Part shown: positions 57 through 23,543 of the stretch, piece by piece | Position numbering within the stretch: position 1 is the stretch's first letter | Layout: each line of letters begins with the position of its first letter | Assembly: GCA_017656345.1 (NCBI GenBank) | Contig: JACDNZ010000015.1 | Span: 1 to 49,093, forward strand | DNA: 49,093 nt | Direction of reading: 5' to 3' | Source: Thermosipho sp. (in: thermotogales) | GTDB taxonomy: Bacteria > Thermotogota > Thermotogae > Thermotogales > Fervidobacteriaceae | Notes under the pieces: model-generated | Seen by the model: the letters and a program-made list of their open reading frames with translations, nothing else | What the model was told of the DNA's origin: nothing | Databases searched by the model: none | Position numbers and translations under genes: made by a program

Positions 57-119
57 CTTTATTTTTTTGCTATATATGTTAAAATTGATTTGGAATTTTA
101 AATGGACGGGAGTGTATAT

Positions 120-863
120 ATGCTGGAATTACGTAATGTAACTTACGAAGTATCAGGCAAGCGCATTTTAGATAATTTGAATTTGAAATTTGTACCTGGA
201 AAAAAATATGCAATATTGGGAACAAATGGTGCTGGAAAAAGTACGATTGGTTATATAATAATGGGTCTTGAAGATTATAAACCAACTACTGGTAGTATAT
301 TGTTGGATGGGAATGACATTACTGACAAATCAGTTTATGAACGTTCAAAGCTTGGAATTACTTTGATGTGGCAGGAACCATCAAGGTATGATGGTTTGAC
401 GGTTAGTACATATTTGACTTTAGGCGGTAAGCTTGATGTTAGTAAAGATACGGTTAATAATGTGCTTGAAAAAGTAGGTCTTGATCCAAAACTTTATTTA
501 AATAGATTTGTGGATAAAAGTTTAAGTGGTGGCGAAAGGAAAAGAGTAGAACTTGCTTCTATTCTATTATTAAAGCCAAAATATGTTATTTTAGATGAAC
601 CTGATTCAGGTATTGATATAATGAGTCTTGAAATGATTAATAATATTATTGATTATATATCATCGTATAATGGTACTCCGATAGTGATTACTCACCGTGA
701 AGAAATGGCTTACAACACAAATGAAGCTTATTTGCTTTGCGCTGGAAAAATATTAACATCCGGGAAAACGGGTGATGTGATAAAGATATTTAAAAATATT
801 TGTAATTCATGTACTCATCCTAACGTTCCTGTGTCAGAGGAGTTGAAAATTGATGGACGTTAA
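120..863 (+). CDS. sufC: SufC-type Fe-S cluster assembly ATPase
   Basis: This 247-aa cytoplasmic ABC ATPase should power the SufB/D scaffold in Fe-S cluster assembly. Visible motifs are Walker A GTNGAGKST, signature LSGGERKR, Walker B YVILDEPDSGIDI and the H-loop ITHRE. The ERKR and DSGIDI surroundings are typical of SufC rather than of import ATPases. The ATG at 120 is preferred over the in-frame ATG at 102, because the GGGAG at 108-112 is correctly spaced only for 120. The 3' end overlaps the next gene by 14 bases, so the two are translationally coupled. Family assignment is firm. The pathway role is inferred from the partner gene. Confidence 0.93.
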   Translation: MLELRNVTYEVSGKRILDNLNLKFVPGKKYAILGTNGAGKSTIGYIIMGLEDYKPTTGSILLDGNDITDKSVYERSKLGITLMWQEPSRYDGLTVSTYLTLGGKLDVSKDTVNNVLEKVGLDPKLYLNRFVDKSLSGGERKRVELASILLLKPKYVILDEPDSGIDIMSLEMINNIIDYISSYNGTPIVITHREEMAYNTNEAYLLCAGKILTSGKTGDVIKIFKNICNSCTHPNVPVSEELKIDGR

Positions 864-9055: not shown

Positions 9056-11472
9056 TGATTGTGAAAAGAAGAAACTGGCTAACTCATATAATTTTGATTG
9101 CTCTTGTTGTAATAATTTTATTTCCAGTAGTTTGGGTTATATCGACTTCCTTAAGACGGGATAATGCTGCTTTTTCTACTAAACTTTTCTCTTCAAGGGT
9201 AAGTATTCAAAACTACAAGGACTTGCTATTCCCAGAACAGAATGTTTTGAGACTTATGAAGGATATTGAGGCAATTACAACAAATACAATGCCATATTCA
9301 GAGAAGTCTTTTGAAGAATTAGTAAGTAAGTTTGATAGGGATATTAAAAGATTGAAAGATTACTCAAACGAAACTAAGATGTTGATAGAAAAAACTGACG
9401 AAGAATATCAAACAATTCAAGGGTTTATAGAAGATAATTCTGAAGAATTATTAAATTCGTTAAAAGAAAATGCAGGTTTAATTGGTGAAAAATTAGATGT
9501 AAAAAAACCTGATGATTCAAAATTATACCTTGCGTTAAATGTTCTTTTAAAAGAAGGTATTGTAAAAGAAAAAGATATTGATGACTTTTTTGATTTGCAG
9601 ATAGTAAAAGATTATGAGGAAGAATGGAAAAATAACTTTGAAACACTGGCTTTGAATATTGAAAACAAACAGCAAAACATTAAAGTTCTTGAAGATGAAG
9701 TTAATTCGTTGAAGAAAGAACTGGAAGAATATCAAAAAGAATATACGCGAATATCAAGTATAATTAGAAGTTCAATTTTACCTCAATTTGAGAGTTTTGA
9801 AAAATCCCTTAATACTGTTTTGGATATTTTAAATAGCAATGATGGTTCTGTGAGAGCTATTGTTAGTGAGTCAAACGAAAAATTAGAATTTGAAAAAATT
9901 TTAGGTTATTTAGAAGAATTAAATAAAGTAAAATTGACCGACGAATTTTCAGAATTTTCAGAAAAGATTAGTAACCTGAATAAACTAGCAAACGAAGTAT
10001 TGAATTTATGGGAAAATTATCCGGAAAAATATACAAGTAAATATGCAGATTTCCTTTCAATTATTAGATTATTTATTTTGAAGGCGTCAAAGCAACTTAA
10101 AGAAAGTGTGGATTTAATGAATAATTTTTCAAATGTAGTTGAAAACTATCTTGAACTGTCAAATTTGATAAATGTTGCGACCAAAAAACTCGAGAAAGAA
10201 AAATTAGAATATGAGACTTTAAAAGTGAAGTATGATGAAAAAGTTGCCGAACTTGTGGATGCTAACAGATATGTTTTTAGTTTAATTTTGAAAGATGATA
10301 TATTATCGTTTAACGAAAAAATTAGTAAGTATACTTTACCAAAAGACATAAACAAAACATATTTTGCAGTAAAAGCACTTGGAAGGTCCTTAAACGATTA
10401 TTTAGTGTATGTTGATGATGAAAATTTGAAGAAAGAGTTGAGAGCATATTTAAGAAAAATGGATTGGGCTGAAACATACAAAAATTTCAAAAAGAGGTAC
10501 GAAAGATTTTCTAAAGATTTTAAAGTATTTGTGGAAGAGTTTGATAATTATGTGAAAAATATAGAGGAAATAGGGCCAAATGCTATAAGCTCAGCAAAAA
10601 ATGGAATAAAAATTAGAATAACAGCATTAGTTCAATTATTCCCTAAAATTCAGTCTGATTATCCAGCGAAAATAGCTTCAAATCTTAGTCTTGTATCAAA
10701 ATATTCAGCCGATTTAATTGATCAGTTGCCTATTAAAGGTGCAAAAGAAAGTTTAAAGATGATGGATAAGAACTTGTTTAGAATTGATCAGATTTGGAAG
10801 GAAAAAACAGAGCACCATCTTATAAGATGGATTATGAATAGTGTTATTGTTGCGGGATTAGTCGCAGTAATTACAACGCTTGTCAATGCTCTTGCAGCTT
10901 ATCCATTTAGCAGAATGAGGTTTAAAGGTCGGAAATATGGTATAATGTCTTTACTATTGATTCAGATGTTCCCGGCAATAATGTACATGGTTGCACTGTA
11001 TGGTTTTTTGAGTTTTATAGGTAGATATATTCCTATTTTGGGATTAAACACCCTTGGTGGATTAATTTTCGTATATCTTGGTGGTATAGCGTTTAATATG
11101 TATTTGATAAAGGGCTTTTATGATACAATACCAAGTTCACTTGAAGAGGCAGCAATGATAGATGGAGCTACGAGATGGCAAACTTTTTGGAGAATTGTTC
11201 TACCACTTGCTTCACCAATTTTAGCAGTTGTTATAATCTTGAGCTTTATGGGAACATTTAACGAATTTGTTTTAGCAAGGATTATTTTACAGGATGTTGA
11301 CAAATATACGTACGCTGTTGGTCTTTGGACATTTTCAACGGGGCCGTTTGAAACTGAATGGGGATTATTTTCTGCAGCAGCATTAATTGGTATGGCTCCA
11401 ATGGTTATTTTGTTCCTCTCTATGCAAAAGTATCTTGTTGGTGGTTTGACAAAAGGTTCGGTAAAAGGATAA
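9055..11472 (+). CDS. malG: Maltose ABC transporter permease MalG with giant insert
   Basis: This 805-aa permease compares with about 300 residues for E. coli MalG. One transmembrane segment (about 10-30, ILIALVVIILFPVVWVI) is followed by about 530 residues of Lys/Glu-rich helical and coiled-coil sequence. The normal core then begins near 587 (LIRWIMNSVIVAGLVAVI). The EAA loop LEEAAMIDGATRWQTFWRI lies near 697. A long MalG insert is also known in Thermotoga. Its placement after the first helix puts it outside the membrane, where it might hold the binding protein or span the periplasm. That role is inference. A terminator follows. Confidence 0.93.
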   Translation: MIVKRRNWLTHIILIALVVIILFPVVWVISTSLRRDNAAFSTKLFSSRVSIQNYKDLLFPEQNVLRLMKDIEAITTNTMPYSEKSFEELVSKFDRDIKRLKDYSNETKMLIEKTDEEYQTIQGFIEDNSEELLNSLKENAGLIGEKLDVKKPDDSKLYLALNVLLKEGIVKEKDIDDFFDLQIVKDYEEEWKNNFETLALNIENKQQNIKVLEDEVNSLKKELEEYQKEYTRISSIIRSSILPQFESFEKSLNTVLDILNSNDGSVRAIVSESNEKLEFEKILGYLEELNKVKLTDEFSEFSEKISNLNKLANEVLNLWENYPEKYTSKYADFLSIIRLFILKASKQLKESVDLMNNFSNVVENYLELSNLINVATKKLEKEKLEYETLKVKYDEKVAELVDANRYVFSLILKDDILSFNEKISKYTLPKDINKTYFAVKALGRSLNDYLVYVDDENLKKELRAYLRKMDWAETYKNFKKRYERFSKDFKVFVEEFDNYVKNIEEIGPNAISSAKNGIKIRITALVQLFPKIQSDYPAKIASNLSLVSKYSADLIDQLPIKGAKESLKMMDKNLFRIDQIWKEKTEHHLIRWIMNSVIVAGLVAVITTLVNALAAYPFSRMRFKGRKYGIMSLLLIQMFPAIMYMVALYGFLSFIGRYIPILGLNTLGGLIFVYLGGIAFNMYLIKGFYDTIPSSLEEAAMIDGATRWQTFWRIVLPLASPILAVVIILSFMGTFNEFVLARIILQDVDKYTYAVGLWTFSTGPFETEWGLFSAAALIGMAPMVILFLSMQKYLVGGLTKGSVKG

Positions 11473-20093: not shown

Positions 20094-20675
20094 TTGGATT
20101 TTATAATGGTAAAAACATCTGGTTTTATATCTACAAATACATATATTTTTGAGAAAAATGGAATGACTTATGTTGTAGATCCGGGATATGGGATAAGTAA
20201 ATATCTAAAAGACGAAAAAGTAAATGTATTATTAACTCATGGACATTATGATCATATTTCAGGTCTTCCTGAGCTAAATGTGAATGAGGTTTATATTTCA
20301 GAAGAAGACAGCGAGATGCTTCACGATCCAAATAAAAATTTTTCTTTTCTTTTTGGTAAGGATTTTGTTTTTAGGGGAAAAGTAAAGAATATTGATGAAT
20401 ATTTTTCAACAATTGAATCGCCAGGTCATACAATTGGTTCAAGAATAATAATTGTTGATGACGTGATTTTTACAGGCGATACTGTTTTTTGTAATACGAT
20501 TGGAAGAAGCGATTTAGGTGGTTCAAAAGAATTAATGAATGAAACGGTTAAAAATTTAAACAAATTATTTTCAAAATTAGATGAAAACATGTTAATCCTT
20601 CCAGGGCATGAAAATATTTGTAAAATTTCAGATTTGTTCAGAATAAATCCATTTTTTAAGCGAGGTTTGGTATGA
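20094..20675 (+). CDS. Metallo-beta-lactamase-fold hydrolase (glyoxalase II-like)
   Basis: This 193-aa cytoplasmic MBL-fold protein is the size of the small glyoxalase II-like group. Metal-binding THGHYDHISG lies near 45. Other metal-site blocks are ESPGHTIGS, FTGDTVF and the C-terminal LPGHE. Hydrolysis of a thioester is likely, but the substrate is unknown. The TTG at 20094 is taken as start because AGGTGA at 20082-20087 is six bases before it; ATG 20106 is an alternative. Its stop overlaps the start of the PBP gene by four bases (ATGA). Confidence 0.85.
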   Translation: MDFIMVKTSGFISTNTYIFEKNGMTYVVDPGYGISKYLKDEKVNVLLTHGHYDHISGLPELNVNEVYISEEDSEMLHDPNKNFSFLFGKDFVFRGKVKNIDEYFSTIESPGHTIGSRIIIVDDVIFTGDTVFCNTIGRSDLGGSKELMNETVKNLNKLFSKLDENMLILPGHENICKISDLFRINPFFKRGLV

Positions 20676-22582
20676 AAAAATTCTTTTTCTTTTTGGCAGG
20701 ATTTTTACTATCTTTTTCTTTATTGATGTATGTTTATATAACTTTTACTAGCAATTTACCGGAACCTGAAACTGTTGTTCCATCTAGTTTGGTAATAGAA
20801 TATTCAGATGGGACCCCCTTCTATTTTCCACGAGCTTTATGGTACAACCTCGATGAATATCCGGAAAAATTAATAACCACGTTAATAATTTCCGAAGATG
20901 AGGATTTCTTTGCCCACATGGGAATAGATGTCTTTGGGATTTTTAGGGGATTGTACAGTACATTTATTAAAAAAGATATACAGGGTGGAAGTACCTTAAC
21001 TCAACAACTTGCAAGAAGTTTATATCTTTCACAGGAGAGAACAATTGAAAGAAAAATAAAAGAATTGTTTATCTCGTTTTATCTTGAAAAAATTAGAACT
21101 AAAAAGGAGATTCTTGAACTTTATTTAAATACGGTATATATGGGAAATGGGATTTATGGTTTTGGGACCGCTTCAAAGTATTATTTTGGAAAGGAACCAA
21201 AGGATTTAACACTTTCCGAAATAGCTTTGCTTGTTAATACGGTAAAATCTCCGGAATATTATAATCCACAGGAGTTAAAGGGAAATTATAAAAAAGCAGA
21301 TATAGTGTTAAAAAGACTTTTGACGGAAAAAGTAATTTCAAATTTAGAATATAAAGAGTACTCGAATCAACTGGAAAATATTAAAGCATATAAAATAGTT
21401 GAGGAAGAATATGACGAAGAAATTTTCTGGAGAGTAATAGAAGAATTAAAGGAGCTTGGCTTTGATTTAAATGTTTTGAGAAAGGGATTTAAAGTAAAAA
21501 CAACTTTAAGAAGTGAGTATAACGATATTTTAAAGCAGAATCTGTCAGAAAAAAATGCAGCATTGATTGTTAACTATATTACCGGTGAGATTCTTGGTTA
21601 TTTTGGAAAGGGAGTAGATGAGGGAAGAAGGCAGACTGGATCTTTAATAAAACCATTTTACTATTACAAAGCTCTTTTAGAAGGTTATAATTTGGATTCA
21701 AAATTGTTTGATTTACCAATAAAGATTGGGGATTGGACACCGCAAAACTTTGAGAAAAATTATTTTGGGCAAACTACATTAGAAGAGGCTTTAGTTCACT
21801 CAAGAAATGTACCATCGTTAAATCTTTATTTAATGTTAGGGGATAATAATGTAAGAATGTTTTTACAGGATCAATTAAAAATAGAAGGATACTATCCAAA
21901 TGATTTAACTTTGTCATTAGGAACACTTGAAACTTCTCATGAAGAGCTTGCAAAAGGTTTTTCTGCACTGTTAAATGGTGGAGTTGTAGTGAAACCACAT
22001 ATTGTTGATGAAGTAATAAGTTACAATGGAATAGTATATTATAAGGCAAAACCAGAAATTGAAAATGTGATTAGAAAGTCGAAACGTTCGCAGTTGGAAG
22101 CGAGTTATCTTATCATTAATCTCTTAAGAGAGGTTGTTAAGAGAGGAACAGGTGTGAGAGCAAATATACCTGGTAAGTATATTGTAGGAAAAACAGGAAC
22201 AGCTGAACAATTTTCATGGTTTATGGGTGCAGATGGTCAGACATTGATGATAATTTCCCAGGATGGTAAAGATCTATTAGGTGGGAGGGATGTAGCTCCC
22301 GTTTGGAAGAATATAGCATTAAAGATTAAGATTGGCGAAAAGCCTTTTACCATTTTTTCTATTTATAGAAGGCTTGATGTGGTAAAGATAAATCCTTTGA
22401 AATATATAGATTATCAATATATATACGAAATGATTCAAGAAGGTAATTTGAGTGTAAAAACTCTAGCAAATATTTTAAAAACATTTGATGAAGAATCATT
22501 ATTTGAGTTTTTATCATATATGAACACAATTTCTCAAGATTTAACTTTGGAATTGTGGAAAATTCTGGGAGGGGAAAGTTAA
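20672..22582 (+). CDS. Penicillin-binding protein 1A (GT51 plus transpeptidase)
   Basis: This 636-aa class A PBP polymerises and cross-links peptidoglycan outside the membrane. An N-terminal transmembrane anchor (1-25) is followed by a GT51 domain with SEDEDFFAHMGID (catalytic Glu), GGSTLTQQLARSLYLS and ELYLNTVYMGNGIYG. The transpeptidase domain has SLIK near 323 (Ser nucleophile), SRN near 376 and KTG near 506. The linker between domains is short. It is translationally coupled to the MBL gene upstream, and its stop overlaps the next start (TAATG). Confidence 0.92.
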   Translation: MKKFFFFLAGFLLSFSLLMYVYITFTSNLPEPETVVPSSLVIEYSDGTPFYFPRALWYNLDEYPEKLITTLIISEDEDFFAHMGIDVFGIFRGLYSTFIKKDIQGGSTLTQQLARSLYLSQERTIERKIKELFISFYLEKIRTKKEILELYLNTVYMGNGIYGFGTASKYYFGKEPKDLTLSEIALLVNTVKSPEYYNPQELKGNYKKADIVLKRLLTEKVISNLEYKEYSNQLENIKAYKIVEEEYDEEIFWRVIEELKELGFDLNVLRKGFKVKTTLRSEYNDILKQNLSEKNAALIVNYITGEILGYFGKGVDEGRRQTGSLIKPFYYYKALLEGYNLDSKLFDLPIKIGDWTPQNFEKNYFGQTTLEEALVHSRNVPSLNLYLMLGDNNVRMFLQDQLKIEGYYPNDLTLSLGTLETSHEELAKGFSALLNGGVVVKPHIVDEVISYNGIVYYKAKPEIENVIRKSKRSQLEASYLIINLLREVVKRGTGVRANIPGKYIVGKTGTAEQFSWFMGADGQTLMIISQDGKDLLGGRDVAPVWKNIALKIKIGEKPFTIFSIYRRLDVVKINPLKYIDYQYIYEMIQEGNLSVKTLANILKTFDEESLFEFLSYMNTISQDLTLELWKILGGES

Positions 22583-23124
22583 TGAAGTTTTTTTATAATT
22601 TGAAAAGATCAGAATTTGGAGAGTATGTGGTTATAGAAATTACGGATGATATTAACAAAGGAATTGGTGCAATAATGCCTGAAAGACATAGAGGTGAGAA
22701 TTATAAAACAATAATGGGAGTTATTGAAGAATATAGGCATATAGTTGAACAGTCAACTGTTAGTGATGCTTTTTGTATTTCAGAAAAACTTGAAAGGTAT
22801 TTTCCAAATCATCCAAAAATAGTTTTTGCAATTGATGCAGCGTTCAAGGAATTGTATTCAAAAGCAAAGGGAATATCATTGGTGAAATTAATTGGGAGAG
22901 AAATTCAACATGAAAAGATTGAAAATAAAGATAGTAAAAAATTATATCCGGAATATATTGGGCATATTGATGTTATAAAATCAATACCAAAAATATTTGA
23001 TGAAGATTTTACTTTTATTTTGACAAAATATCCCGATGGTGAAATGTGGGATGTTTTGAAAGCTCTTGCAACCAATTTTGATTATGTGGAGGTGCTTTCA
23101 TGGAAAGAACGTTTGTCTATTTAA
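22582..23124 (+). CDS. Stand-alone enolase-superfamily N-terminal-like domain, non-catalytic
   Basis: In this 180-aa protein, the first 120 residues look like the N-terminal capping domain of the mandelate racemase/dipeptide epimerase branch. A GIGAIMPERHRGENYKT strand-loop and a helix are followed by AIDAAFKELYSKAKGISL and VKLIGR. That matches the AIDxALxDLxxKxxGxPLxxLLG hallmark. The following 60 residues contain no KxK motif or metal-ligand pattern, so the catalytic barrel is missing. The start is ATG 22582, with GGGAGGGG upstream; an in-frame start at 22555 lies inside pbp1A. It overlaps ndk by 25 bases. Function is unknown. The similarity was judged by eye. Confidence 0.75.
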   Translation: MKFFYNLKRSEFGEYVVIEITDDINKGIGAIMPERHRGENYKTIMGVIEEYRHIVEQSTVSDAFCISEKLERYFPNHPKIVFAIDAAFKELYSKAKGISLVKLIGREIQHEKIENKDSKKLYPEYIGHIDVIKSIPKIFDEDFTFILTKYPDGEMWDVLKALATNFDYVEVLSWKERLSI

Positions 23125-23543
23125 AACCAAATGCAGTTAGAAGGGGACTTGTTGGGGAAATAATAAAAAGATTTGAACAAAGGGGAATAAAAATAGTTGC
23201 ACTTAAGCTTTTCTGGATGAGTAGAAAACAGGCTGAGAAATTATATGAAATGCACTATGGTAAATCATTTTACGAGGAATTAATAGATTTTGTCACTGGA
23301 GGACCAGTGGTTGCAATGATAGTTGAAGCTCCGCGTGTAATTGAAATGGTTAGACATATAATTGGTGATACAGATCCTCTTAAAGCTGGTACAGGAACAA
23401 TTAGGGGAGAATTTGCATTAACAATAACGAAGAATTTAATACATGCAAGTGATTCAAGAGGAAGCTTTGAGAGGGAATACAAAATATTCTTCGATGAGAG
23501 CGAAATAGTTAATTATTACCTTGATGTTCAGGATGATATTTAA
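23100..23543 (+). CDS. ndk: Nucleoside diphosphate kinase
   Basis: This 147-aa enzyme transfers phosphate from ATP to NDPs through a phosphohistidine. Family blocks are TFVYLKPNAVRRGLVGEI, the Kpn-loop region, GDTDPLKAGTGTIRGEFA and NLIHASDS with the active-site His near 118. SD GGAGGTG precedes ATG 23100, which lies inside the preceding gene. Length is normal for the family. Confidence 0.95.
   Translation: MERTFVYLKPNAVRRGLVGEIIKRFEQRGIKIVALKLFWMSRKQAEKLYEMHYGKSFYEELIDFVTGGPVVAMIVEAPRVIEMVRHIIGDTDPLKAGTGTIRGEFALTITKNLIHASDSRGSFEREYKIFFDESEIVNYYLDVQDDI

Follow-up and report, generated by a model that had tools for sequence, protein, structure and literature searches.

The window, i.e., the whole stretch of 49,093 nucleotides that was analysed, carries a small gene located between those of a PBP1A-type penicillin-binding protein and of nucleoside diphosphate kinase (Ndk). 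The corresponding features are collected in Table 1. The gene pointed out in the original prediction is a real one: its frame, which encodes 180 aa, is preceded by a Shine-Dalgarno-like sequence and overlaps both neighbours. The hallmark of capping domains that had been pointed out, AIDAAFKELYSKAKG, is present and corresponds to residues 83-97 of the 180-aa protein. Taken alone, this motif is little proof. The genome of the window contains a single copy of the short gene. A weak match of the short protein to an 806-aa frame (9394-9579 of the window, E 0.01) looks like chance.

Table 1. Position in the window of the 180-aa gene, its segments and the adjacent genes.
Feature	Position	Strand	Basis
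Cap-only enolase-superfamily homologue, 180 aa, ATG to stop	22582..23124	+	ORF reading, profile searches
Residues 12-106, segment aligning with the dipeptide-epimerase cap domain	22615..22899	+	hhalign; column-shuffle and reversal controls
Lys42, invariant in the short family and A3	22705..22707	+	alignment rows
C-terminal tail (residues 107-180), in which a YP motif is conserved	22900..23121	+	no barrel homology detected
GGGAGG, Shine-Dalgarno-like, ahead of the ATG	22567..22572	+	read directly
PBP1A-type penicillin-binding protein; its stop overlaps the start of the 180-aa gene by 1 nt	20672..22582	+	
Nucleoside diphosphate kinase (Ndk); its ATG is overlapped over 25 nt by the end of the 180-aa gene	23100..23543	+	

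The short protein and its homologues (the short family) were compared with the families and structures of the enolase superfamily. In Pfam, MR_MLE_N (PF02746) is matched weakly by 4 of 16 short-family members (best E 0.005). The match to this profile that the original prediction anticipated is thus found for a part of the family, and the protein of the window itself is unmatched. The NCBIfam models for epimerases and racemases are more often matched: 11 of the 16 members for the DgcA racemase, 7 and 6 for two L-Ala-D/L-Glu epimerase models, the last one being that of Thermotoga (best E 7.1e-8). Among PDB entries, the top match is a dipeptide epimerase for the single sequence (E 0.12) as well as for the profile (E 0.013), both values being weak.

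In profile-profile comparison with hhalign, the short family aligns with the epimerases of Thermotogales over residues 12-106 (E 1.4e-4). The best profile match (E 1.4e-10) is obtained with A3, i.e., a family of full-length relatives described below. The scores are 42.0 against epimerases and 73.1 against A3; the controls (reversed copies and 100 column-shuffled copies) reach at most 23.7 and 22.6, respectively, and none of the 100 shuffled copies equals the true score in either case. A cap domain of the enolase superfamily (MR/MLE type) is thus recognized by sequence profiles with controls, and the family assignment originally made is correct. This cap-domain sequence is common to the short protein and to the dipeptide epimerases of the L-Ala-D/L-Glu type (2zad of Thermotoga, YkfB/1jpm, 1jpd and 3rit), whereas the short protein has no barrel. 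Moreover, when aligned with the own epimerase of the window's genome, the short chain begins about 17 residues later.

With four sequences as input, AlphaFold gave a poor model of the short protein (pLDDT 46). In the first part of this model, three strands are followed by four helices, as expected of a cap; at this pLDDT the fold is not confirmed. The first, second and fifth Foldseek matches are entries of the enolase superfamily with E-values of 0.12-0.4. With VIA, members of the enolase superfamily have Z-scores up to 3.4, below unrelated proteins at 4.9. The model and the Foldseek and VIA results count neither way.

The chain of 180 aa leaves 74 residues after the cap. This length excludes a whole (beta/alpha)7beta barrel, which in dipeptide epimerases houses the active site, and no MR_MLE_C (PF13378) match is listed for the 16 short members. 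The statement that the gene stops short of any KxK or metal-ligand segment is to be qualified: it is right that a whole barrel is absent, but the chain continues for about 74 residues beyond the cap. For this tail (residues 107-180), no homology with the barrel is detectable, 34 of 100 column shuffles scoring as well. As the tail is not alignable with the barrel, a catalytic segment can be neither assigned to it nor strictly excluded from it, and the positions of the two lysines and of the three acidic metal ligands are not readable there. Visual inspection suggests a likeness of residues 118-175 to strands and helices in the barrel of A3; this reading of the tail as a remnant of the barrel was dropped because of the 34 shuffles that equal its score.

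A split-off gene encoding an A3-type barrel was also looked for. No such gene was seen in families f1 and f3 with the full-length A3 profile (103 genomes searched), which listed there only the short gene and, in one genome (G038), an ordinary epimerase. The sensitivity of this search is limited, since this profile did not recover the short gene in six f3 genomes known to have it (G034-G037, G039 and G040), also at E up to 1.

The short form is present in 31 of the 45 sampled genomes of the order (protein search), and none of the 31 matches contains an internal stop. Its distribution differs among families: 17/20 genomes in f1, 14/14 in f3 and 0/11 in f2. The 33 rows that were read correspond to 30 distinct proteins or loci, whose lengths range from 172 to 183 aa with start codons chosen by script. 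The same short form is thus conserved across f1 and f3. Within genera, dN/dS ranges from 0.010 to 0.166 and indicates purifying selection; it was computable in 27 of 47 pairs (no dS for the 20 others), and many of these estimates are rough, dS being often above 1. Such a conservation under selection suggests that the lid probably has some job of its own. A single scan of genome contigs for close relatives, aimed beyond the phylum, gave three loci, two from Thermosipho and one from Thermotogaceae. A collection of viral sequences contained no relative. Among the titles listed in literature searches on truncated, inactive or pseudo members of the enolase superfamily and on dipeptide epimerases of Thermotogae, none concerned a cap-only protein, and no paper was found for the T. 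maritima tag TM0238.

The f1 genomes without the short gene are G017 (99% complete), G018 (81%) and G019 (60%). In G017 and G019, PBP1A and Ndk lie side by side with no family member between them, so that the gene is dispensable there. In G018, Ndk was not found at this completeness of 81%.

When the short-family profile was followed beyond the order, proteins of about 310 aa (A3) were found in family f10. Within the class, 21 genomes of f10 were sampled, and a ten-member profile shows an A3 member in 19 of them; 18 of these members are intact. The two genomes without A3 belong to genus g36; one is 80% complete, the other is 94% complete with 6% contamination. The copy of G085 (L171, G085:C12:123756-124681) is broken by stops. 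In addition to its intact copy, G084 contains extra A3 fragments (G084:C18:4008-4422). A3 belongs to the enolase superfamily: MR_MLE_C matches 9 of 10 members, in contrast with the short family, and the best E-value against PDB is 1.8e-21.

The active site of A3 was read in an alignment of 18 A3 and 60 canonical rows (50 EP and 10 CAN, several genes being included twice). The numbering of the lysines is anchored on the alignment with 1jpm and on PMC5808125, according to which K162 and K268 are catalytic in YkfB. The three metal-ligand positions are unchanged in the 18 intact A3 members, which all lack both catalytic lysines. At the position of K162, A3 has Glu in 17 members and Asp in one; at that of K268, it has Asp (9), Glu (6), Ser (2) or Asn (1). 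Both lysines are found throughout the canonical rows, with the exception of a distant relative present twice (L035 and L191) and of L188, a fragment cut by the end of its contig and devoid of the first lysine position. With both lysines replaced, A3 should not epimerise by a two-base mechanism; its metal site may still work. In the original prediction, orthologs with a full barrel would mark the copy seen in the window as truncated. Barrel-bearing relatives do exist (A3, in another family of the class), yet their existence does not turn this copy into a recently truncated one.

The short family and A3 have in common residues E14, G27, P33, G38, E39, K42 and E49. K42 is found in 48/48 rows of the two families (30/30 short, 18/18 A3) vs. 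0/48 canonical epimerase rows, E49 in 48/48 vs. 3/48, and E14 in 48/48 vs. 16/48. A3 differs from the short family in that it keeps the barrel and the metal ligands. The median score with the short-family HMM is 31.8 bits for A3, vs. 12.9 and 8.9 bits for two canonical sets. In the best tree of the caps, the short family groups with A3, with weak support (63/81), and the grouping of the short family with the ordinary epimerases of Thermotogales is not rejected (p 0.155). One epimerase of the class with intact catalytic residues, L142 (G048:C50), has a score of 31.1 bits with the short-family profile, i.e., as high as a typical A3 member. L142 is possibly the nearest active relative of the short family.

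Several other explanations of the short gene have to be weighed against these data. The protein could lie outside the enolase superfamily and be a small helical domain (e.g., MLD-like) whose similarity to caps is due to chance. Pfam MLD matches 5 of the 16 members with a best E-value (3.1e-4) better than that of MR_MLE_N, and the low-confidence model has unrelated proteins as its top VIA matches. Nevertheless, this explanation is very improbable. The protein of the window scores 20.2 bits with MLD (PF11647) over 45 residues and does not reach the curated cut-off of 35; MLD matches none of the 10 A3 members scanned; the similarity to epimerases spans the whole of residues 12-106, holds against both kinds of controls, and chains via a family with a recognizable barrel. 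The idea of a recent truncation or of a decaying pseudogene, to which the missing barrel and the absence of the gene from G017 and G019 (same family) could point, is negligible in view of the single length class across two families, of dN/dS values well under 1 in the computed pairs and of the 31 matches free of internal stops. The original prediction was right in considering that the gene is not a fresh pseudogene. It is also improbable, though less markedly, that the short protein is a partner subunit of an ordinary full-length epimerase encoded elsewhere in the genome, exchanging caps with it or modulating it. Another PF02746 match above the cut-off is indeed held by 25 of the 31 genomes having the short gene. 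But the other six (G024, G031, G032, G033, G042 and G043) have none at that threshold, four of them (G031, G032, G042 and G043) being drafts of more than 100 contigs with a completeness of 92-94%, and PF02746 proteins occur without the short gene in 10 of the 11 f2 genomes. The presence of the short gene does not track that of ordinary epimerases.

A link with the cell wall, in which the cap would bind a peptide of peptidoglycan or PBP1A itself and would tune wall synthesis, is unlikely as a whole. PBP1A is directly upstream of the short gene in the 17 f1 genomes that have it, and Ndk is found downstream, within the flank read, in 16 of them. In the f3 genome G035, a Mur ligase gene lies divergently to the short gene and ends a cluster of Mur ligases with MraY-, MurD- and FtsW-type genes. 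According to PMC5808125, dipeptides of the wall are the substrates of the ancestral family. On the contrary, neither PBP1A nor Ndk occurs within the 1.5-kb flank at any of the 13 f3 loci checked (out of 14), and PBP1A is located elsewhere in the four f3 genomes that were looked up (G031, G034, G035 and G044). At two annotated loci, one of g11 and one of g14, the short gene follows NfeD and radical SAM genes. Other genes are found in f10, and G017 and G019 retain the PBP1A-Ndk pair without the short gene. A wall role is thus possible in f1 and not general. The position between PBP1A and Ndk, which is seen in the window, had led to the suggestion of a wall-linked, peptide-binding role; this suggestion is not established, the context being restricted to f1 and the neighbours being different at the f3 and f10 loci read. 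In G035, the short gene also stands before two sugar-nucleotidyltransferase genes, and in G034 it is likewise directly followed by such a gene.

The explanation preferred here, and considered as probable from the sequence comparisons, is that the short gene encodes a maintained non-catalytic protein, descended from a dipeptide-epimerase-like cap domain, the (beta/alpha)7beta barrel of which has been lost. The sequences show the homology of the cap, the conservation of the short form under purifying selection, the lack of room for a barrel and the loss of both lysines in A3; binding and history are inferred. Most likely, the former lid now serves for binding or as an adapter. The lineage would have lost catalysis first, by replacement of the lysines with mostly acidic residues, and the barrel would have been lost later, in Thermotogales. 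Active epimerase, full-length pseudo-epimerase and cap-only protein would then form a series, the order of which is plausible rather than proven. Given the score of L142, the support of the tree (63/81) and the p-value of 0.155, this stepwise history is a good guess and not a result.

In the enolase superfamily, the cap is generally seen as a lid serving its barrel. In the parent enzymes, the edge formed by strands 2 and 3 and by the start of the first helix borders the loops of substrate specificity. The residues shared with A3 are located in strands 2 and 3 and at the start of the first helix, and the retained cap may bind through this region, as an adapter or as a ligand-sensing module. A wider reading is put forward tentatively and may well prove wrong: a free-standing cap under selection would have arisen by a stepwise route that can be read in living genomes, and would be a portable module binding ligands or proteins, coupled with PBP1A in f1. 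In this wider reading, the full-length intermediate, with its metal site and its replaced lysines, may carry out a new chemistry or act as a sensor. A conserved cap-only protein together with A3, which keeps the metal ligands without the lysines, gives a concrete series for studying how an enzyme becomes a binding protein and what a lid is capable of by itself. The short gene also occurs in genomes of the Thermotoga and Thermosipho types; proteins from these thermophiles are often stable and convenient to work with.

Family f2, which has no short gene, differs also by its epimerases. Nine of its 11 genomes have two PF02746 proteins, one of the two being a divergent epimerase whose catalytic residues are canonical (L037, L039, L040, L046, L051, L063, L066 and L076). 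This second epimerase was considered as a syntenic full-length ortholog of the short gene and rejected: no PBP1A or Ndk match was found in the 17 f2 regions read, and the proteins retain the catalytic residues. Relatives of the first two genes of the window (102-863 and 850-1803) are found near the divergent epimerase in 8 of these 17 regions.

The A3 genes (L134-L141, L143-L151 and L189) may themselves encode a new chemistry or a metal-binding pseudoenzyme. In f10, 11 of the 18 A3 loci adjoin one small gene for a membrane-type protein, this character being read from the sequence. It is mostly followed by a phosphoribosyltransferase-like gene and then by an SMC-like gene, the latter also named from the sequence. 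A dCache/SpoIIE signalling gene is found at 6 of the remaining 7 loci. The conserved run (SMC-like, phosphoribosyltransferase-like and small membrane-type genes, ending in A3) is observed at L135, L137, L143, L144, L145 and L148-L151. An OGT-like gene is also present in 7 of these 9 runs, the names being given partly by eye.
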